DNA from: an uncultured Methylopila sp.
Lineage (GTDB): Bacteria; Pseudomonadota; Alphaproteobacteria; Rhizobiales; Methylopilaceae
DNA length: 64,000 bases
Direction of reading: 5' to 3'
Assembly (NCBI GenBank): GCA_902168115.1
Contig: CABHPB010000148.1
Coordinates: 1-64,000, forward strand
The notes under the pieces were generated by a model. That model saw nothing but the letters and a program-made list of their open reading frames with translations, ran no database searches and was not told the DNA's origin. A program made the position numbers and the translations under genes. Of this stretch, positions 128-5,249 are shown in pieces (positions within the stretch are counted from its first letter, which is position 1; each line of letters starts with the position of its first letter).

Positions 128-652
128 GAGCGTTTTCCGTTCTTTTTTCAGCGTGTTGCGTTCAGACGGAGAATGGATTTCCGAGGGTGCGTCCTTCGAG
201 ACGCCCGCTGCGCTGGCTCCTCGGGGCGGGACCGTGGAGGGTGGCGCCGCGCCAGTTGTGCTCGACGTCGCGCGTACTTCCGGCCGCGATCGCCTTGCCG
301 AGACAGGTCTCGACGCGGAGGCCGGAGTAAACCGGCCGGCTTTTGATGACGGATCTCAACATCTTCAGTCACGATCCGCGGTCGGTTGCGCAACAGTGCG
401 ATGGCAAAAGTCATTCCTGTTCCGGACGAAGCATCGCCCGGAGTAGTCAGTACAGCTTTCGTTGAACTGCGGCGGTCGGGCCGGGTTCTGGATACTCAGC
501 CGATGATCCGCATGGGGCCCGCCGGCGCAATAGTGCCTACTGTCACCATCGACGGCTCAAGCAGACCGGCGGACAATGACCATGGCGGCCGCGTCGGCGA
601 CGGAGTTTTCCTCGCCCGGCGGCCCGGCATTGGGCGGGAGCTGGACTTCGTC
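128..652. other. Intergenic region with one degenerate palindromic repeat
   Basis: No convincing gene is visible. An open frame extends upstream of the LuxR gene at 653, but it has no counterpart in the downstream paralog and reads as low-complexity G/C sequence. Around 187-230 there is a degenerate copy of the palindromic repeat seen intact near 49590-49714; both share the core GCGTCCTTCGAGACGC and a GCTCCTC arm. The region should hold the divergent promoters of the fragment at 1-127 and the LuxR pair, but no consensus box stands out. Confidence 0.4.
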
Positions 653-1690
653 ATGACCGGCACGAGCGCGCGCACGAACCTGCCCCGCATCGACGACGCG
701 AACTGGTATCGCGTCGCCGGCGAGGTCGTGAAGTCGATGGGATCGAAGCACTTCCATCGCGAGCTCATCAAGCTTCTGGAAGCGAGCATCGAGAGCGAGG
801 CGGTCTGGATCATCCGCTATTCGGGCCGGCTGCCGCCGGACGTCGTCTACACCCACAACGTCCCCGACGCCGTCCGGACGATCTACGACGCGCGCTGCTC
901 GTCCATCGACCCGTTCTCCAAGCGCTGGAACGAGCGGCGCCGAGGCGGGGTCTATGTGCTGTCGCAGCTTCGCGACGAGAGCGCCGACTACCTGCTCTAC
1001 GCCAAGCGGTTCCTGACCGCCGCCCGGATGGACGACGAGCTCGGCGTCTTCCTGCCGGAAACCGCTCACAACTGCTTCGCCTTCTTCCTCGAGCGGCGCA
1101 GCGGACATTTCAGCAGGATGGAAATCGAGCGCGCCAGGCTGCTGTATCCCGCGCTCGCCAGCTTCCACCGCGCGCATCTCGGCTGGATCTTCAGCGAGCT
1201 GGCGTATGGCGACACGCCGGAAGCGTTCGGACTGCCGGACAGGCCGACCCTGATCCGTGACCGGACCGGCCAGACCGTCTATGCGAGCGCCTCGTGGCAG
1301 GGCCTCGAGAGGATGACGCCGCCGCTGCTCGAGAAGGTGGACCTCGCGTCGCGAACCGGCCTGTCGGAGGTCGAGATCGGGGCGTTGGTGCTGCGGCTCG
1401 AGGAGCTGGGCGATGATTTCCCGCTGGCGCCCGGCGGCCGGATGTTCGTGGTCGAGCCCCGGCCGAGTTCACACGTCCAGCCTTCGATCGCCGGCGAACT
1501 GGACGGCTTCTCCCGGCGCGAACGCGAGGTGCTGGAGTTCACGCTCAGGGGCGCCTCGACGCTCAAGATCGCCGAGACGCTCGGCCTGAGCGCCGGCACG
1601 GTGAAGAACGCCAAGCTCCGGCCCTATCGGAAGGCGGGCGTCTCCACGGAGCGGGAGCTGGTCCAGAAATATCTGGCGCTGGTGGGCTGA
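653..1690 (+). CDS. LuxR-type helix-turn-helix regulator, copy 1
   Basis: A 345-residue transcription regulator. The C-terminal 65 residues form a LuxR/FixJ-type DNA-binding domain (FSRREREVLEFTLRG, then IAETLGLSAGTVKN and YRKAGV). The N-terminal part, with FHRELIKLLEA, WIIRYSG and SIDPFSKRW, matches the downstream gene closely but is not a clear autoinducer-binding, response-regulator or PAS domain, so the signal is unknown. The ATG at 653 is chosen because homology to the paralog begins there and GGGCGGGAG precedes it; an upstream in-frame extension to 386 is possible. Its stop is 1 nt from the next ATG, so the pair is probably translationally coupled. It may regulate the FAD oxidoreductase downstream. 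Confidence 0.72.
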   Translation: MTGTSARTNLPRIDDANWYRVAGEVVKSMGSKHFHRELIKLLEASIESEAVWIIRYSGRLPPDVVYTHNVPDAVRTIYDARCSSIDPFSKRWNERRRGGVYVLSQLRDESADYLLYAKRFLTAARMDDELGVFLPETAHNCFAFFLERRSGHFSRMEIERARLLYPALASFHRAHLGWIFSELAYGDTPEAFGLPDRPTLIRDRTGQTVYASASWQGLERMTPPLLEKVDLASRTGLSEVEIGALVLRLEELGDDFPLAPGGRMFVVEPRPSSHVQPSIAGELDGFSRREREVLEFTLRGASTLKIAETLGLSAGTVKNAKLRPYRKAGVSTERELVQKYLALVG

Positions 1691-1691
1691 G

Positions 1692-2744
1692 ATGCTGGCG
1701 GCGACGGAGCGCAAAAGCCGATCTGCCGGCGGCGAACGCTGGTTGGCGACGGTGGCCGGGCTCACCGCGTCGCTCGGTTCCGACGCCTTTCATCGGGAGC
1801 TGGTCGCGGCGTTCGGGTCCTTGATCCGGCACGACTCCAGCTGGATCATCCAGTATTCCCGAGGCGCGCCGCCGAACGTCATCTTCACCGGCGACGTGCC
1901 GGCCGCGGTGCTCGCGCACTACAACGCCAATTGCCGGTCGATCGACCCGTTCTCGCGCTATTGGGCGCTTCGCGAGGAGCCGGGGGTCAAGACCCTTCGA
2001 CAGTTCGACGACCTGCGCGAGGGCGTCGACCCGAGGGTCTACAACGCGGTGTTCAAGCCCGTCGCCAAAGTCAGCGACGAACTCGGCGTGTTCTTCTCCA
2101 CCGTCGGGCACGCGTCCATCGGCGTCTTCCTCGAGCGCGAGACCGGCTGCTTCAGTCCCGGCGAGATCGCCCTCGCGAAAAGCGTCTTTCCGCTGCTGGA
2201 CGGCTTCTACGCCGCCCACATCGGACGCCTGTTCGCGCAGGTCCGTCGCTCGGGCCGGATGTGCGAGGACGGGCTGGCGGACCGGCCGATGCTCATCCAG
2301 GACCGCAGGGGCCTGGAGATCCTGTCGACGCCGTCCTGGCGGGCGGCCGCCGCGAGCGACCGATCGATCATGCGGGCCGTGACCGACGGCGGGGCGGCCG
2401 GCGCCACGCCGGTCGGGTCGCATGTGCTGAGACGCGAGGCCCTTTCGGAGTACTTCCCGCTCGCCCCGGGCGGCGCGATCTTCCTCCTGCTCGACAAGCC
2501 GCCCGAGACGAGCGTCCGCGGCCGCACGGGCCACGCCGCCGCCCTGCAGCGGTCGCTGACCGCTCAAGAGGCGGTCGTCTTCGAGTTGATCATGCTGGGC
2601 TCGTCCACCGGCGGCATCGCCCAGCGGCTCGCGATCAGCAAGCGCTCGGTCAACAATTACCGGACGAAGATCTATCGAAAGGCCGGCGTCCATTCGGAAC
2701 GGGCGCTGGTCCAGAAGTTCGCCGCCGCGGCGTCGCACGCATGA
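1692..2744 (+). CDS. LuxR-type helix-turn-helix regulator, copy 2
   Basis: A 350-residue paralog of the preceding gene and evidently a tandem duplicate. Shared blocks include FHREL, WIIQYS, SIDPFSRYW, DELGVFF, FLERE and FPLAPGG, plus the C-terminal LuxR-type helix-turn-helix (LTAQEAVVFELIMLG, IAQRLAISKRSVNNY, IYRKAGVHSERALVQKF). Conservation of the sensory half in both copies suggests related but separate ligands or a heteromeric regulator. It starts at an ATG one base after the upstream stop. The next gene, a FAD oxidoreductase, begins about 137 bases further on. No phosphoacceptor domain or membrane segment is seen, so it should act in the cytoplasm. Confidence 0.75.
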   Translation: MLAATERKSRSAGGERWLATVAGLTASLGSDAFHRELVAAFGSLIRHDSSWIIQYSRGAPPNVIFTGDVPAAVLAHYNANCRSIDPFSRYWALREEPGVKTLRQFDDLREGVDPRVYNAVFKPVAKVSDELGVFFSTVGHASIGVFLERETGCFSPGEIALAKSVFPLLDGFYAAHIGRLFAQVRRSGRMCEDGLADRPMLIQDRRGLEILSTPSWRAAAASDRSIMRAVTDGGAAGATPVGSHVLRREALSEYFPLAPGGAIFLLLDKPPETSVRGRTGHAAALQRSLTAQEAVVFELIMLGSSTGGIAQRLAISKRSVNNYRTKIYRKAGVHSERALVQKFAAAASHA

Positions 2745-2880
2745 CCGCGGCCTCGGCCATGAAACGAACCGTTCGCGCGAACGGCCAGCGAGGAACGACC
2801 GTGCGCTGGCTTTGCCCCTCACATGCGATCACCGGCGAGGCGGTCGCCCTGCCGGCGCCGAACCCCCGCATGGCGCGGCG

Positions 2881-4215
2881 ATGACGACGGGCGTCACTCT
2901 CGGGCGCCTCGCGCGCGGCCGGATCGGAAGCGACATCGAGACCGCGCCCTTCTGGTGGGAGGCCGCGCCGCCTCCCGAAGGCGGCTTCGACCCCGTTCCC
3001 CGCAAGGTCGACGTCGCGATCGTCGGAGCGGGCTTCACCGGCCTGTCGGCGGCGCTGACGCTCGCTCGTGCCGGCCGCGGCGTCCTGGTCGTCGACGCCG
3101 GCCGGCCGGGCTTCGGGGCGAGCACCCGCAACGGCGGACAGGTCGGCAGCGGCAATCAGAAGTTTCGCGTCCGGACGCTCATCGACATGAAGGGCGAGCG
3201 GAAGGCCGTCGAGCTGCTTCGCGAAGGCGTCGAGATGCTCGACGGCATCGAGCGTCTGGTGCGGACGGAGGGCATCGACTGCGCGTTCGAACGATGCGGT
3301 CGGTTTCGCGGCGCGATGCGCCCCGAGCATTACGAGAGCATGGCGCGCGACATGGCCGACCTTCGCCGTTACGCCGGGGTCGACGCCGAAATGGTCCCGA
3401 GACGCGAGCAGGGCCGAGAGATCGGAAGCGACCGCTTTCATGGCGGCTCGCTTCTTCCCGACGACGCGTCGATCGACCCGGGCCGCTACCATGCGGGGCT
3501 CCTGGCGCGGGTCAGAGAGGCCGGCGCCGCCGTCGCCGGCTGCGCGCCGGTCCGGGACATCGTGTCGGACCGGGACGGCCACACGCTCCGTTTCGACGGC
3601 TTCGACCTGCGCGCCCGCGACGTCGTGGTCGCGACCAACGGCTACACCAGGGACGTCGGCGGCTACTTCTCCAAGCGGATCACGCCAATCGTGTCGTCGC
3701 AGATCGCGACGGGCCCTGTCCCGCAGGCGGCGCTCGCCGCCGCGACGCCGAGGCGGCGCGTCTACGGAAATTCCAACCGCGTGTTTTTCTATTTCCGCAC
3801 GGCGCCCGGGCAGAACCGCATCATCTGGGGCGGACGGGCGAATCATGTCGCGAGGCGAGGCTCCGCCTCCTCGTTCCGTCACCTGGCTCGGGACCTCCTC
3901 CAGACGTTCCCCGGCCTTGGCGACGTGGAGGTCAGCCACGCCTGGAGCGGACTGATCGGCTACACCTTCGATGAGTTCCCCCATCTCGGCCGGTCGCCGG
4001 ACGGCGTGCACTACGCCATGGGCTACTGCGGCACGGGCGTCTCCCGCTCCAGCCATTTCGGCCGCAAGATCGCGTTGCAGCTGCTGGGCGATCCGGATGG
4101 GCGGAGCGCGTTCAACGATCTCGGCTTTCCGAGCCATCCCTTCCATTTCGCGGCGAGGCGCGCGGTCCCGGCGATCGAGGCCTGGTATCGCATTCGCGAC
4201 GCAGCAGCGTTCTGA
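2881..4215 (+). CDS. FAD-dependent oxidoreductase, DadA/PuuB type
   Basis: A 444-residue flavoprotein of the D-amino-acid oxidase/glycine oxidase fold. The dinucleotide-binding motif VAIVGAGFTGLSAALTLARAG lies around residues 40-60, followed by VVDAG and then GASTRNGGQVG, the arrangement of gamma-glutamylputrescine and related amine oxidases. The C-terminus has the FAD-closing segment with IGYTFDEFPHLGRSPDG, then YCGTGVSRS. It likely oxidises a secondary amine or amino-acid derivative in the cytoplasm; the substrate cannot be read from sequence. An ATG at 2881 is preferred; an upstream TTG at 2812 would add 23 residues of no recognisable character. Downstream of two LuxR regulators. Confidence 0.78.
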   Translation: MTTGVTLGRLARGRIGSDIETAPFWWEAAPPPEGGFDPVPRKVDVAIVGAGFTGLSAALTLARAGRGVLVVDAGRPGFGASTRNGGQVGSGNQKFRVRTLIDMKGERKAVELLREGVEMLDGIERLVRTEGIDCAFERCGRFRGAMRPEHYESMARDMADLRRYAGVDAEMVPRREQGREIGSDRFHGGSLLPDDASIDPGRYHAGLLARVREAGAAVAGCAPVRDIVSDRDGHTLRFDGFDLRARDVVVATNGYTRDVGGYFSKRITPIVSSQIATGPVPQAALAAATPRRRVYGNSNRVFFYFRTAPGQNRIIWGGRANHVARRGSASSFRHLARDLLQTFPGLGDVEVSHAWSGLIGYTFDEFPHLGRSPDGVHYAMGYCGTGVSRSSHFGRKIALQLLGDPDGRSAFNDLGFPSHPFHFAARRAVPAIEAWYRIRDAAAF

Positions 4216-4329
4216 GCCTCTGCGATCCGGCGCCGGGCGAGCAGCCGGGCCCCGCATTCCGGGTCGGCCGCCCTCCGCAGCGGCGGTCGGTCGCTGCCCA
4301 CAAGGTGATCAATTTGCCCAATAGTTACT

Positions 4330-4447
4330 CATGTCACGATTGAAAAATAGGCGCTGGGCTTTAATCTTGGGGGCGTGAGGCAACGTCCTCGCCCTGGTGG
4401 ACAGGATGAAAGTCCGGGACGGCCCGGCGTTCGTGCGGAGGAACGCC
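4330..4447 (+). promoter_or_regulatory. Structured leader of gdx with ribosome-site hairpin; candidate riboswitch
   Basis: Three consecutive hairpins can be drawn. The first pairs GGGC/GAGG (4371-4380) with CCTCGCCC (4387-4394). The second pairs GGAC with GTCC around the loop AGGATGAAA (about 4399-4415). The third is a perfect 7-bp stem, GGCGTTC (4426-4432) with GAACGCC (4441-4447), whose loop holds most of the GGAGG ribosome site. Guanidinium exporter genes are often controlled by guanidine riboswitches. The piece GGACAGGATGAAAGTCCGGG loosely recalls the 3' part of the guanidine-I class, but the conserved 5' core is not seen, so the class is unassigned. Confidence 0.4.
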
Positions 4448-4771
4448 GTGGCGTGGGTTTATCTGTTGTCGGCCGGACTGCTTGAAGTCGTCTGGGCGCT
4501 TGCTCTCAAGCAGTCGAGTGGTTTCACTCGACTGATTCCCTCGATCGTCACGGTCGTCGCCGCGCTGGCAAGTTTTGTGCTGCTGTCTCTCGCGATGAAA
4601 TCCATGCCTCTTGGCTCGGCCTACACGATATGGACCGGCATCGGCGCGATCGGCGCCTTCGCGGTCGGCGTCATCGTGCTCGGTGAGCAGGCAAACGTTT
4701 CACGCGTCGCCGCGGCGGCGCTGATCGTCGCCGGGCTCGTCATGATGAAGCTGTCCACGCCTGCGACATGA
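4448..4771 (+). CDS. gdx: Guanidinium exporter Gdx (SugE, SMR family)
   Basis: A 107-residue inner-membrane protein with four hydrophobic helices, the size of small multidrug resistance proteins. The essential helix-1 glutamate is E13 (AGLLEVVWA). The segments LKQSSGFTR, MPLGSAYTIWTGIGAIG and VIVLGEQ are the SugE/Gdx signature rather than EmrE, pointing to proton-coupled guanidinium export as an antiparallel dimer. The start is a GTG at 4448 because it gives the family's usual MAWxYL beginning and sits 6 nt after GGAGG; an ATG at 4397 would add 17 non-homologous residues. It is preceded by a folded leader. Confidence 0.9.
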   Translation: MAWVYLLSAGLLEVVWALALKQSSGFTRLIPSIVTVVAALASFVLLSLAMKSMPLGSAYTIWTGIGAIGAFAVGVIVLGEQANVSRVAAAALIVAGLVMMKLSTPAT

Positions 4772-4889
4772 CGGGCGCGCGCTTGCGGGGCGCGGTCGGC
4801 TAAGCCGTGCGCAGAAGCTCCCGACATGGCCGGCGCGGCCTGTCCCCTTCCACGGCGCGTCTTGCGCGATTGCGATGATCGGAACGTCG

Positions 4890-5249
4890 ATGGGCCCGAC
4901 GAAATGGCGGCGGACTGAACTTTCGGGTGAGGGCCCCAAGAGCCGGTGGTTCACCGAGCCCCGGCCGGGCGGCTGGACCGAGCCGGTGATCATGGAATGG
5001 GAGCTGACGGGCGAATCCTGGACCGACGAGCACGTCCATGACGAATACGCCTACGTCCTCGAGGGCGAGCTCCACGTCGAGTGCGACGGGGTCGTCGTCG
5101 AGGCGGGCGTGGGCGACCTCATCCGCGTTCCGGCGGGCTCCACCGGTCGATACTGGGCGCCCGCCTACGCCCGCATGCTGGGCGTCTATGCGCCCAATCC
5201 CGAGGGCCTGCCCATGCGGAACGCGCGCTTCGAGAAGCTGGACACGTGA
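4890..5249 (+). CDS. Single-domain cupin protein
   Basis: About 119 residues. The first cupin motif is recognisable as HVHDEYAYVLEGELHV, giving two metal-ligand histidines and a glutamate, followed by the second-half pattern GDLIRVPAGSTGRYWAP. Such small cupins bind a metal ion in a beta-barrel and serve as dioxygenases, isomerases or sensors; the substrate is unknown. The ATG at 4890 has GGAA five bases upstream; the ATG at 4875 in the same frame lacks a ribosome site. It follows gdx by 118 bases on the same strand and could be co-transcribed, but no functional link to guanidine is known. Confidence 0.7.
   Translation: MGPTKWRRTELSGEGPKSRWFTEPRPGGWTEPVIMEWELTGESWTDEHVHDEYAYVLEGELHVECDGVVVEAGVGDLIRVPAGSTGRYWAPAYARMLGVYAPNPEGLPMRNARFEKLDT

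Follow-up and report, generated by a model that had tools for sequence, protein, structure and literature searches.

What do two adjacent LuxR-type regulators near the edge of a contig sense, and which genes do they control? The question is raised by a 64,000-nucleotide stretch from an uncultured Methylopila sp. (assembly GCA_902168115.1, contig CABHPB010000148.1, here C148, positions 1 to 64,000), referred to below as the window. It begins at base 1 of its contig, and the sequence upstream is cut off at the edge. The source genome is a 4.1-Mb assembly in 154 contigs, 98.4% complete with 3.7% contamination. Gene A and gene B (see table) are adjacent tandem paralogues with 38% identity, and a gene for a flavin adenine dinucleotide (FAD) oxidase of the DAO family follows. 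A first-pass annotation, made from the sequence alone, had described two tandem LuxR paralogs followed by a FAD oxidoreductase, and both descriptions were borne out, with a GerE helix-turn-helix (HTH) domain found on both regulators. It had also proposed an unclassified sensory half, an amine or betaine as the possible signal and the oxidase as a partner; these proposals fared less evenly. Our reading, to which we assign a probability of about 0.7, is that A and B are ligand-responsive activators of methylated-amine operons which would act through a conserved palindrome. The computed basis for it consists of gene content, homology, fold, co-inheritance and operator conservation.

The DNA-binding end of both proteins was readily assigned, with the GerE HTH (PF00196) at the C-terminus of A (E 4e-9) and of B (E 3e-12) at 36.3 and 46.5 bits over a cut-off of 23.5. 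For the N-terminal half, Pfam gave no match in A or B at E<=1, nor in the N-terminal half of a paralogue at E<=5, and this includes the autoinducer-binding family Autoind_bind (PF03472). Neither a receiver domain (PF00072) nor an AraC or GntR HTH was matched in A or B at E<=1. A profile of 22 family members searched against the PDB returned a sole match at E<=0.01, the ligand-binding domain (LBD) of VqsR (5xhx, E 3.9e-8), which spans residues 11-173 and has DPF and DE motifs common to both. Structure prediction, which the first-pass annotation had suggested, put the same domain on top for both proteins. The AlphaFold2 models (mean predicted local distance difference test 84.8 for A and 83.1 for B) matched the VqsR LBD best, with Z 18.0, a root-mean-square deviation (rmsd) of 2.7 and 164 aligned residues for A, and Z 17.2, rmsd 3.0 and 163 residues for B. 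As modelled, the N-terminal half is a VqsR-type LBD with the fold of quorum-sensing LuxR receptors and is not a new class, and we read the middle segment between LBD and HTH (residues 199-269) as PAS-like by the order of its strands and helices. With a VqsR fold and a PAS-like segment, the earlier description of the sensory half as neither autoinducer-binding nor PAS fails at the level of fold, and its own reservation, that the domain might map to a known signal-binding family, proved partly justified.

Such a fold invites the explanation that A and B are receptors of acyl-homoserine lactones (AHLs), LuxR solos that answer the signals of neighbouring bacteria, with the amine genes being incidental. 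RhlR, SdiA, CepR2 and LasR do appear among the fold matches of A at Z 11.6-13.7, the RhlR and SdiA rows spanning two domains with an rmsd of about 15. However, VqsR is closer than the AHL-bound receptors, which together with phytochrome GAF domains rank below it (Z <=13.7), Autoind_bind is unmatched, and the neighbourhoods in which the family recurs are catabolic, all of which makes quorum sensing a most improbable account. A search of the genome for an AHL synthase found nothing, but the control genomes were equally silent.

Turning to those neighbourhoods, the source genome holds 18 GerE matches, eight of which form four tandem pairs on contigs C148 (the window), C109, C14 and C90. The A copies are 42-52% identical to window A and the B copies 43-51% to window B, which exceeds the identity between A and B themselves. 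The C109 pair adjoins methylamine dehydrogenase (mau) genes (TIGR02658, TIGR02659). On C14 and C90 the pair lies beside a dimethylamine monooxygenase (dmm) operon and diverges from a permease gene, after which come dmmA, a reductase and the haem subunit HODM, and at C90 a choline dehydrogenase is also found downstream; HODM occurs in this genome on C14 and C90 only. In ten of the 13 pairs compared, the surrounding stretch includes dmm or mau genes, the remaining three being the window, one pair with a contig edge inside dmmA and one on a 6.1-kb contig. A dmm-type permease or dmm genes also lie near every one of the nine single-gene relatives placed in our tree. A scan of species genomes found 16 loci in Alphaproteobacteria only (Hansschlegelia, Chenggangzhangella, Chelatococcus, Methylocella, Methylorubrum with six, Xanthobacter with three, Hyphomicrobium, Phaeobacter and Ruegeria). 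Within the order, at least 31 of 397 genomes carry a family match at E<=1e-20; the best six candidates per genome were scored and the counts are lower bounds (the source genome has eight members, six of them among the matches listed). All seven genomes with E<1e-90 have HODM no more than 4.6 kb from a copy, among the matches listed. The proposal that the pair senses an amine or betaine thus stands in part, an amine-related role being supported by the dmm and mau genes beside paralogous pairs and not by the oxidase.

The history of the two genes is similarly consistent. In a maximum-likelihood tree of 47 rows (built without genome G117 and several weak matches, and with a program warning of long branches among distant rows), the 13 A rows and the 13 B rows each form one clade with support of 100/100, and none of the nine single-gene relatives falls inside either. 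Distances among A and among B correlate with r 0.96, a value matched in 0 of 5000 permutations, species kinship not being allowed for. As the tree reads, A and B arose from one tandem duplication and were then inherited together. An overlap of 1 or 4 nt joins the genes at eight of the nine junctions examined (nine of the 13 pairs), and in the window a 1-nt gap separates them (TGA-G-ATG). A mixed A-B complex would fit such strict co-inheritance.

How might such regulators find their targets? Upstream of A, 12 of the 13 pairs carry a 26-bp palindrome, GCAATGGTGMC-N4-GKCACCATTGC, its centre lying 64-130 bp before the start of the match to A in the 11 pairs measured (locus L022 is the twelfth). 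The first-pass annotation had proposed looking for shared inverted repeats upstream of both A and the oxidase; the repeat is there before A, and near the start of the oxidase the best score was a weak 10.5, at 2878. A scoring matrix was built from eight sites and applied to 34 other family loci, a set without the eight used for training; L014 and L024, which nearly duplicate L003 and L009, and the short loci L028-L065, which overlap others, were also left out. Near relatives were retained, namely L020/L021 and also L104, where the regulator has 98.6% identity to the one at a training locus. In 21 of these held-out loci the best score exceeded 20, and in 16 it passed 22.4, the maximum reached in 5.86 Mb of Markov sequence. 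Among 18 control stretches that lack family members, the best score was 9.6; these comprised 17 loci and the rest of the window, with L070-L099 omitted as fetched by pattern and L121 and L133 as holding the window site. When up to two mismatches were allowed, the pattern occurred at three places in the 4.1-Mb genome, upstream of A both on C90 and in the window, and before a gene for a small multidrug resistance (SMR) transporter in the window (pattern at 4320), and the backwards control occurred at none. Over the 397 genomes the two-mismatch pattern was too noisy, with 284 matching and the backwards control also matching many. A relaxed version of the pattern was composed with both window sites already in view, and its chance figure carries no weight as evidence. 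No Rfam family was found at the gathering threshold in nine family loci.

The geometry of these sites hints at the sign of the regulation. Matches to TATAAT peak 19 nt after the 26-mer, with a mean of 2.83 of 6 (null maxima 2.20, sd 0.10; 0 of 2000), using 24 of 34 sites, one or two per close group, and taking the better strand at each offset. From this we infer that the operator is centred near -44, a placement like that of activators overlapping the -35 region. At C90 the hexamer matches at 4/6 positions towards the permease and 3/6 towards A, and transcription there could run either way. Activation of the methylated-amine genes by the pair is likely.

Several observations weigh against this reading. 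The mau pair is without the operator (best score 6.1), though the reading claims mau as one of its two substrate classes, and this pair is among the 13 of 34 held-out loci that score below 20. Even where the site exists it can be poor, as three of the twelve pair sites (C14, DM1 and M. aminovorans) score just 16.6-18.5. HODM lies within 10 kb in none of the 24 genomes that have weaker matches alone, among the matches listed. Members that are 25-35% identical adjoin agmatinase, Rieske, amidase, short-chain dehydrogenase/reductase (SDR) or flavin-containing monooxygenase (FMO) genes, and since the neighbours of distant members differ, the compounds sensed may differ too. The deletion of the window's dmm operon, described below, is deduced from the contig edge of an assembly. 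Lastly, in the nine of 11 measured pairs that have a divergent permease, the operator at dmm loci stands 290-560 bp away from it and close to A, so that autoregulation of A-B alone also fits.

This last point deserves closer attention. The long leader before the dmm permease contains a block conserved over four loci (L003 4640-5180, L013, L014 and L102), which includes TTTTTATTCAGAAGAAAAA.TTTTGACA and a TTGACA motif, and the block looks like a separate promoter. Both the distances and this second block in the C90-type leader would suit a palindrome that serves only autoregulation of A-B, with the amine operons under another regulator. What such an account leaves aside is the placement of the sites elsewhere. 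At three Xanthobacter loci the best site (scores 16.0-20.5) stands before the permease and not before the regulator, and the second window site stands before the SMR gene. At distant loci the operator precedes catabolic genes: agmatinase-family genes at L110, L112 and L113, genes for a Rieske oxygenase and for a formaldehyde-activating enzyme at L025, an amidase gene at L119, and at L107 SDR and FMO genes; at L111 it has agmatinase on one side and a choline-dehydrogenase-like gene on the other. Two of these sites, at L111 (21.5) and L113 (20.2), score below the null maximum. Weighing these placements, we hold autoregulation alone to be unlikely. The members beside agmatinase genes (L110, L111, L112 and L113) share the operator, and a chemical link through dimethylamine is possible; in the accessible part of one report, homologues of agmatinase are described as candidate hydrolases of metformin, with release of dimethylamine, in Aminobacter (PMC9699525).

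Taken as activators of methylated-amine operons, A and B would operate as follows. Each would be a ligand-responsive LuxR-type activator, with a pocket domain of the VqsR type, then a PAS-like segment, and a GerE domain for DNA binding. Both would bind the palindrome just upstream of A and, once bound, would switch on nearby genes for methylated-amine breakdown, dmm, and mau at one paralogous locus, by activation rather than repression. The trigger is probably an amine or one of its products. In the window, the operator before A is retained, and the second site probably gives the pair control over the SMR exporter and a cupin as well. In a bolder form, which we put forward tentatively and consider doubtful, A and B would be an obligate two-protein sensor co-bound to the palindrome, their VqsR-type pockets reading mono- or dimethylamine or a shared product. 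They would belong to a wider alphaproteobacterial family that, through one conserved operator, governs the breakdown of small nitrogen compounds (methylamines, guanidino compounds, betaines and amides), and the window pair would have moved from a deleted dmm operon to a guanidinium-type SMR exporter. Unequal operator half-sites were considered as a sign of a heterodimer and are not supported as such. The strong half exceeds the weak by 2.25 in the 12 pair sites, 2.0 in nine single-gene sites and 1.06 in 16 distant sites, and the asymmetry does not separate pairs from singles.

What, then, is left for the window pair to control? Upstream of A, a 15-residue segment on the reverse strand has ten residues identical to C90 DmmA near its start (tblastn, E 1.8e-4 in 700 bp), after which the similarity stops. 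The 42 residues at the contig edge equal the start of a full gene that lies beside HODM in relatives, the full-length version of which in genome G215 is GCV_T (E 5e-59); Ruegeria dmmD is described as GcvT-containing in the part of PMC5520151 available to us. An orthologous pair in Hansschlegelia beijingensis (77% and 73% identity) is divergent from a dmmA start at its own contig edge. Window bases 1-127 are exactly those of C90 (L003) bases 1-127. As 127 is a common assembler k-mer, we read these common bases as the overlap of two assembly-graph neighbours of one shared dmmD, and most of the dmm operon of the window appears to have been deleted. That two contigs open on the same dmmD start probably also means two dmmD copies. 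A further sequence, GTGCGTCCTTCGAGACGCCCGCT, occurs at window 187-209 and at L003 181-203 and is perhaps a dispersed repeat involved in the deletion.

With only 15 dmmA codons and the dmmD start left upstream, and HODM confined to two other contigs, the pair could be a relic whose target operon is gone and which now does little. Against this, A and B are both open and keep all 34 residues that are invariant across A, B and the single-gene members, the operator before A has a high score, and a second site is present, which leaves the relic an improbable explanation. From base composition, a site as good as the second one is expected 1.4e-4 times in 64 kb and 0.009 times in 4.1 Mb. The SMR protein behind it reaches 120.8 bits with the SugE model, just below the cut-off of 126, and is closest to structures 8vxu and 6wk5, the latter of which we take to be a guanidinium exporter. 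The Guanidine-II-like leader between site and gene was not recovered in the search of the window at the gathering threshold, and its fold energy is unremarkable (z-score -1.28). At the sole other locus found with a homologue of the cupin, no operator lies beside the cupin (best 8.2). The pair, its dmm operon apparently lost, may nevertheless serve the exporter.

The remaining candidate target is the adjacent FAD oxidase, which the first-pass annotation had taken as the main target of an amine- or betaine-sensing pair. It lies on the same strand just past B, and read-through from the pair would be possible. Close relatives of the oxidase (61-79% identity) occur in six of 60 other genomes searched, and none of the six has the pair alongside (pair positions among the matches listed; 1.5 kb on each side scored for the operator). 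Around the orthologous pair of H. beijingensis, 11.4 kb hold no match to the oxidase. The partnership, suggested by adjacency only, was rejected on this neighbourhood comparison; given also the weak score near the oxidase start and the dmm or mau genes beside paralogous pairs, we regard the oxidase as a highly unlikely main target.

Features of the window discussed in the text (score, operator matrix score)
Feature	Position	Strand	Remarks
dmmD-like GcvT-family gene, first 42 codons, cut by contig edge	2..127	-	
dmmA remnant, 15 codons near gene start	309..353	-	tblastn match to C90 DmmA
Predicted operator upstream of A, 26-bp palindrome	527..552	.	score 35.8; kept in H. beijingensis orthologue
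Gene A	653..1690	+	VqsR-type LBD, PAS-like segment, GerE HTH (as modelled)
Gene B	1692..2744	+	A paralogue, same architecture as A
DAO-family FAD oxidase	2881..4215	+	PF01266, E 3e-57; 136 nt past B; linkage to pair not conserved
Second predicted operator, upstream of SMR gene	4318..4343	.	score 24.3
Putative -10-like hexamer TTTAAT	4360..4365	+	16 nt past second 26-mer
Guanidine-II riboswitch-like leader, sub-threshold	4373..4427	+	19 bits vs gathering score 32, E 0.27
SMR transporter, SugE-like	4448..4771	+	likely start GTG 4448; longest open reading frame from 4397
EutQ-like cupin	4875..5249	+	domain profile match

The A-B locus is real and coherent as a regulatory unit: its superfamily is known, its setting is new, and the operator prediction is strong. 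If our reading is true, the dmm and mau operons of Hansschlegelia, Chelatococcus, Methylorubrum, Xanthobacter and Methylocella gain both a regulator and a DNA motif, VqsR-type domains gain a testable ligand class, and the predicted operator lets the regulon be inferred from sequence. In the open-access literature searched, a scope that leaves out most subscription journals, no LuxR-type regulator of dmm or mau was found. The accessible parts of PMC11381386, PMC4211393 and PMC13043044 contain none, and the mentions of LuxR in those of PMC3899980, PMC5623727 and PMC3404531 concern matters other than dmm or mau regulation.

How does the pair compare with systems that are known? Regulators of methylated-amine catabolic genes have been described in marine Roseobacter, namely TmaR and TmoR of Ruegeria pomeroyi, the former acting on dmmDABC among others (PMC13390433, in the part accessible). 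These are AraC-type and GntR-type proteins, whereas A and B are LuxR-type with a GerE HTH. That HTH is shared with DmfR, the LuxR-family activator of dimethylformamidase in Paracoccus aminophilus, where the pathway yields dimethylamine (accessible part of PMC4543880). On plasmid pLVM1 of Methylobacterium sp. DM1, a LuxR-type gene directly before dimethylformamidase (L100 5855-6970) is likely the local DmfR. Its sensor half gives a weak Autoind_bind match (E 0.0015, below the cut-off) and no match to the A/B family. With this positional stand-in, which aligns with the family in the HTH only, membership of DmfR found no support. The AHL receptors RhlR, SdiA, LasR and TraR have both the sensor fold and the GerE HTH in common with A and B; unlike them, A and B lack a sequence match to Autoind_bind, carry an additional middle segment and lie in a catabolic neighbourhood. 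In the sensor domain the closest match is VqsR, an orphan LuxR-type regulator of Pseudomonas aeruginosa, the LBD chain of which (5XHX) was compared on its own. A and B resemble it in this domain and differ from it in the segment between LBD and HTH, in having a tandem paralogue and in their setting among genes of amine catabolism.

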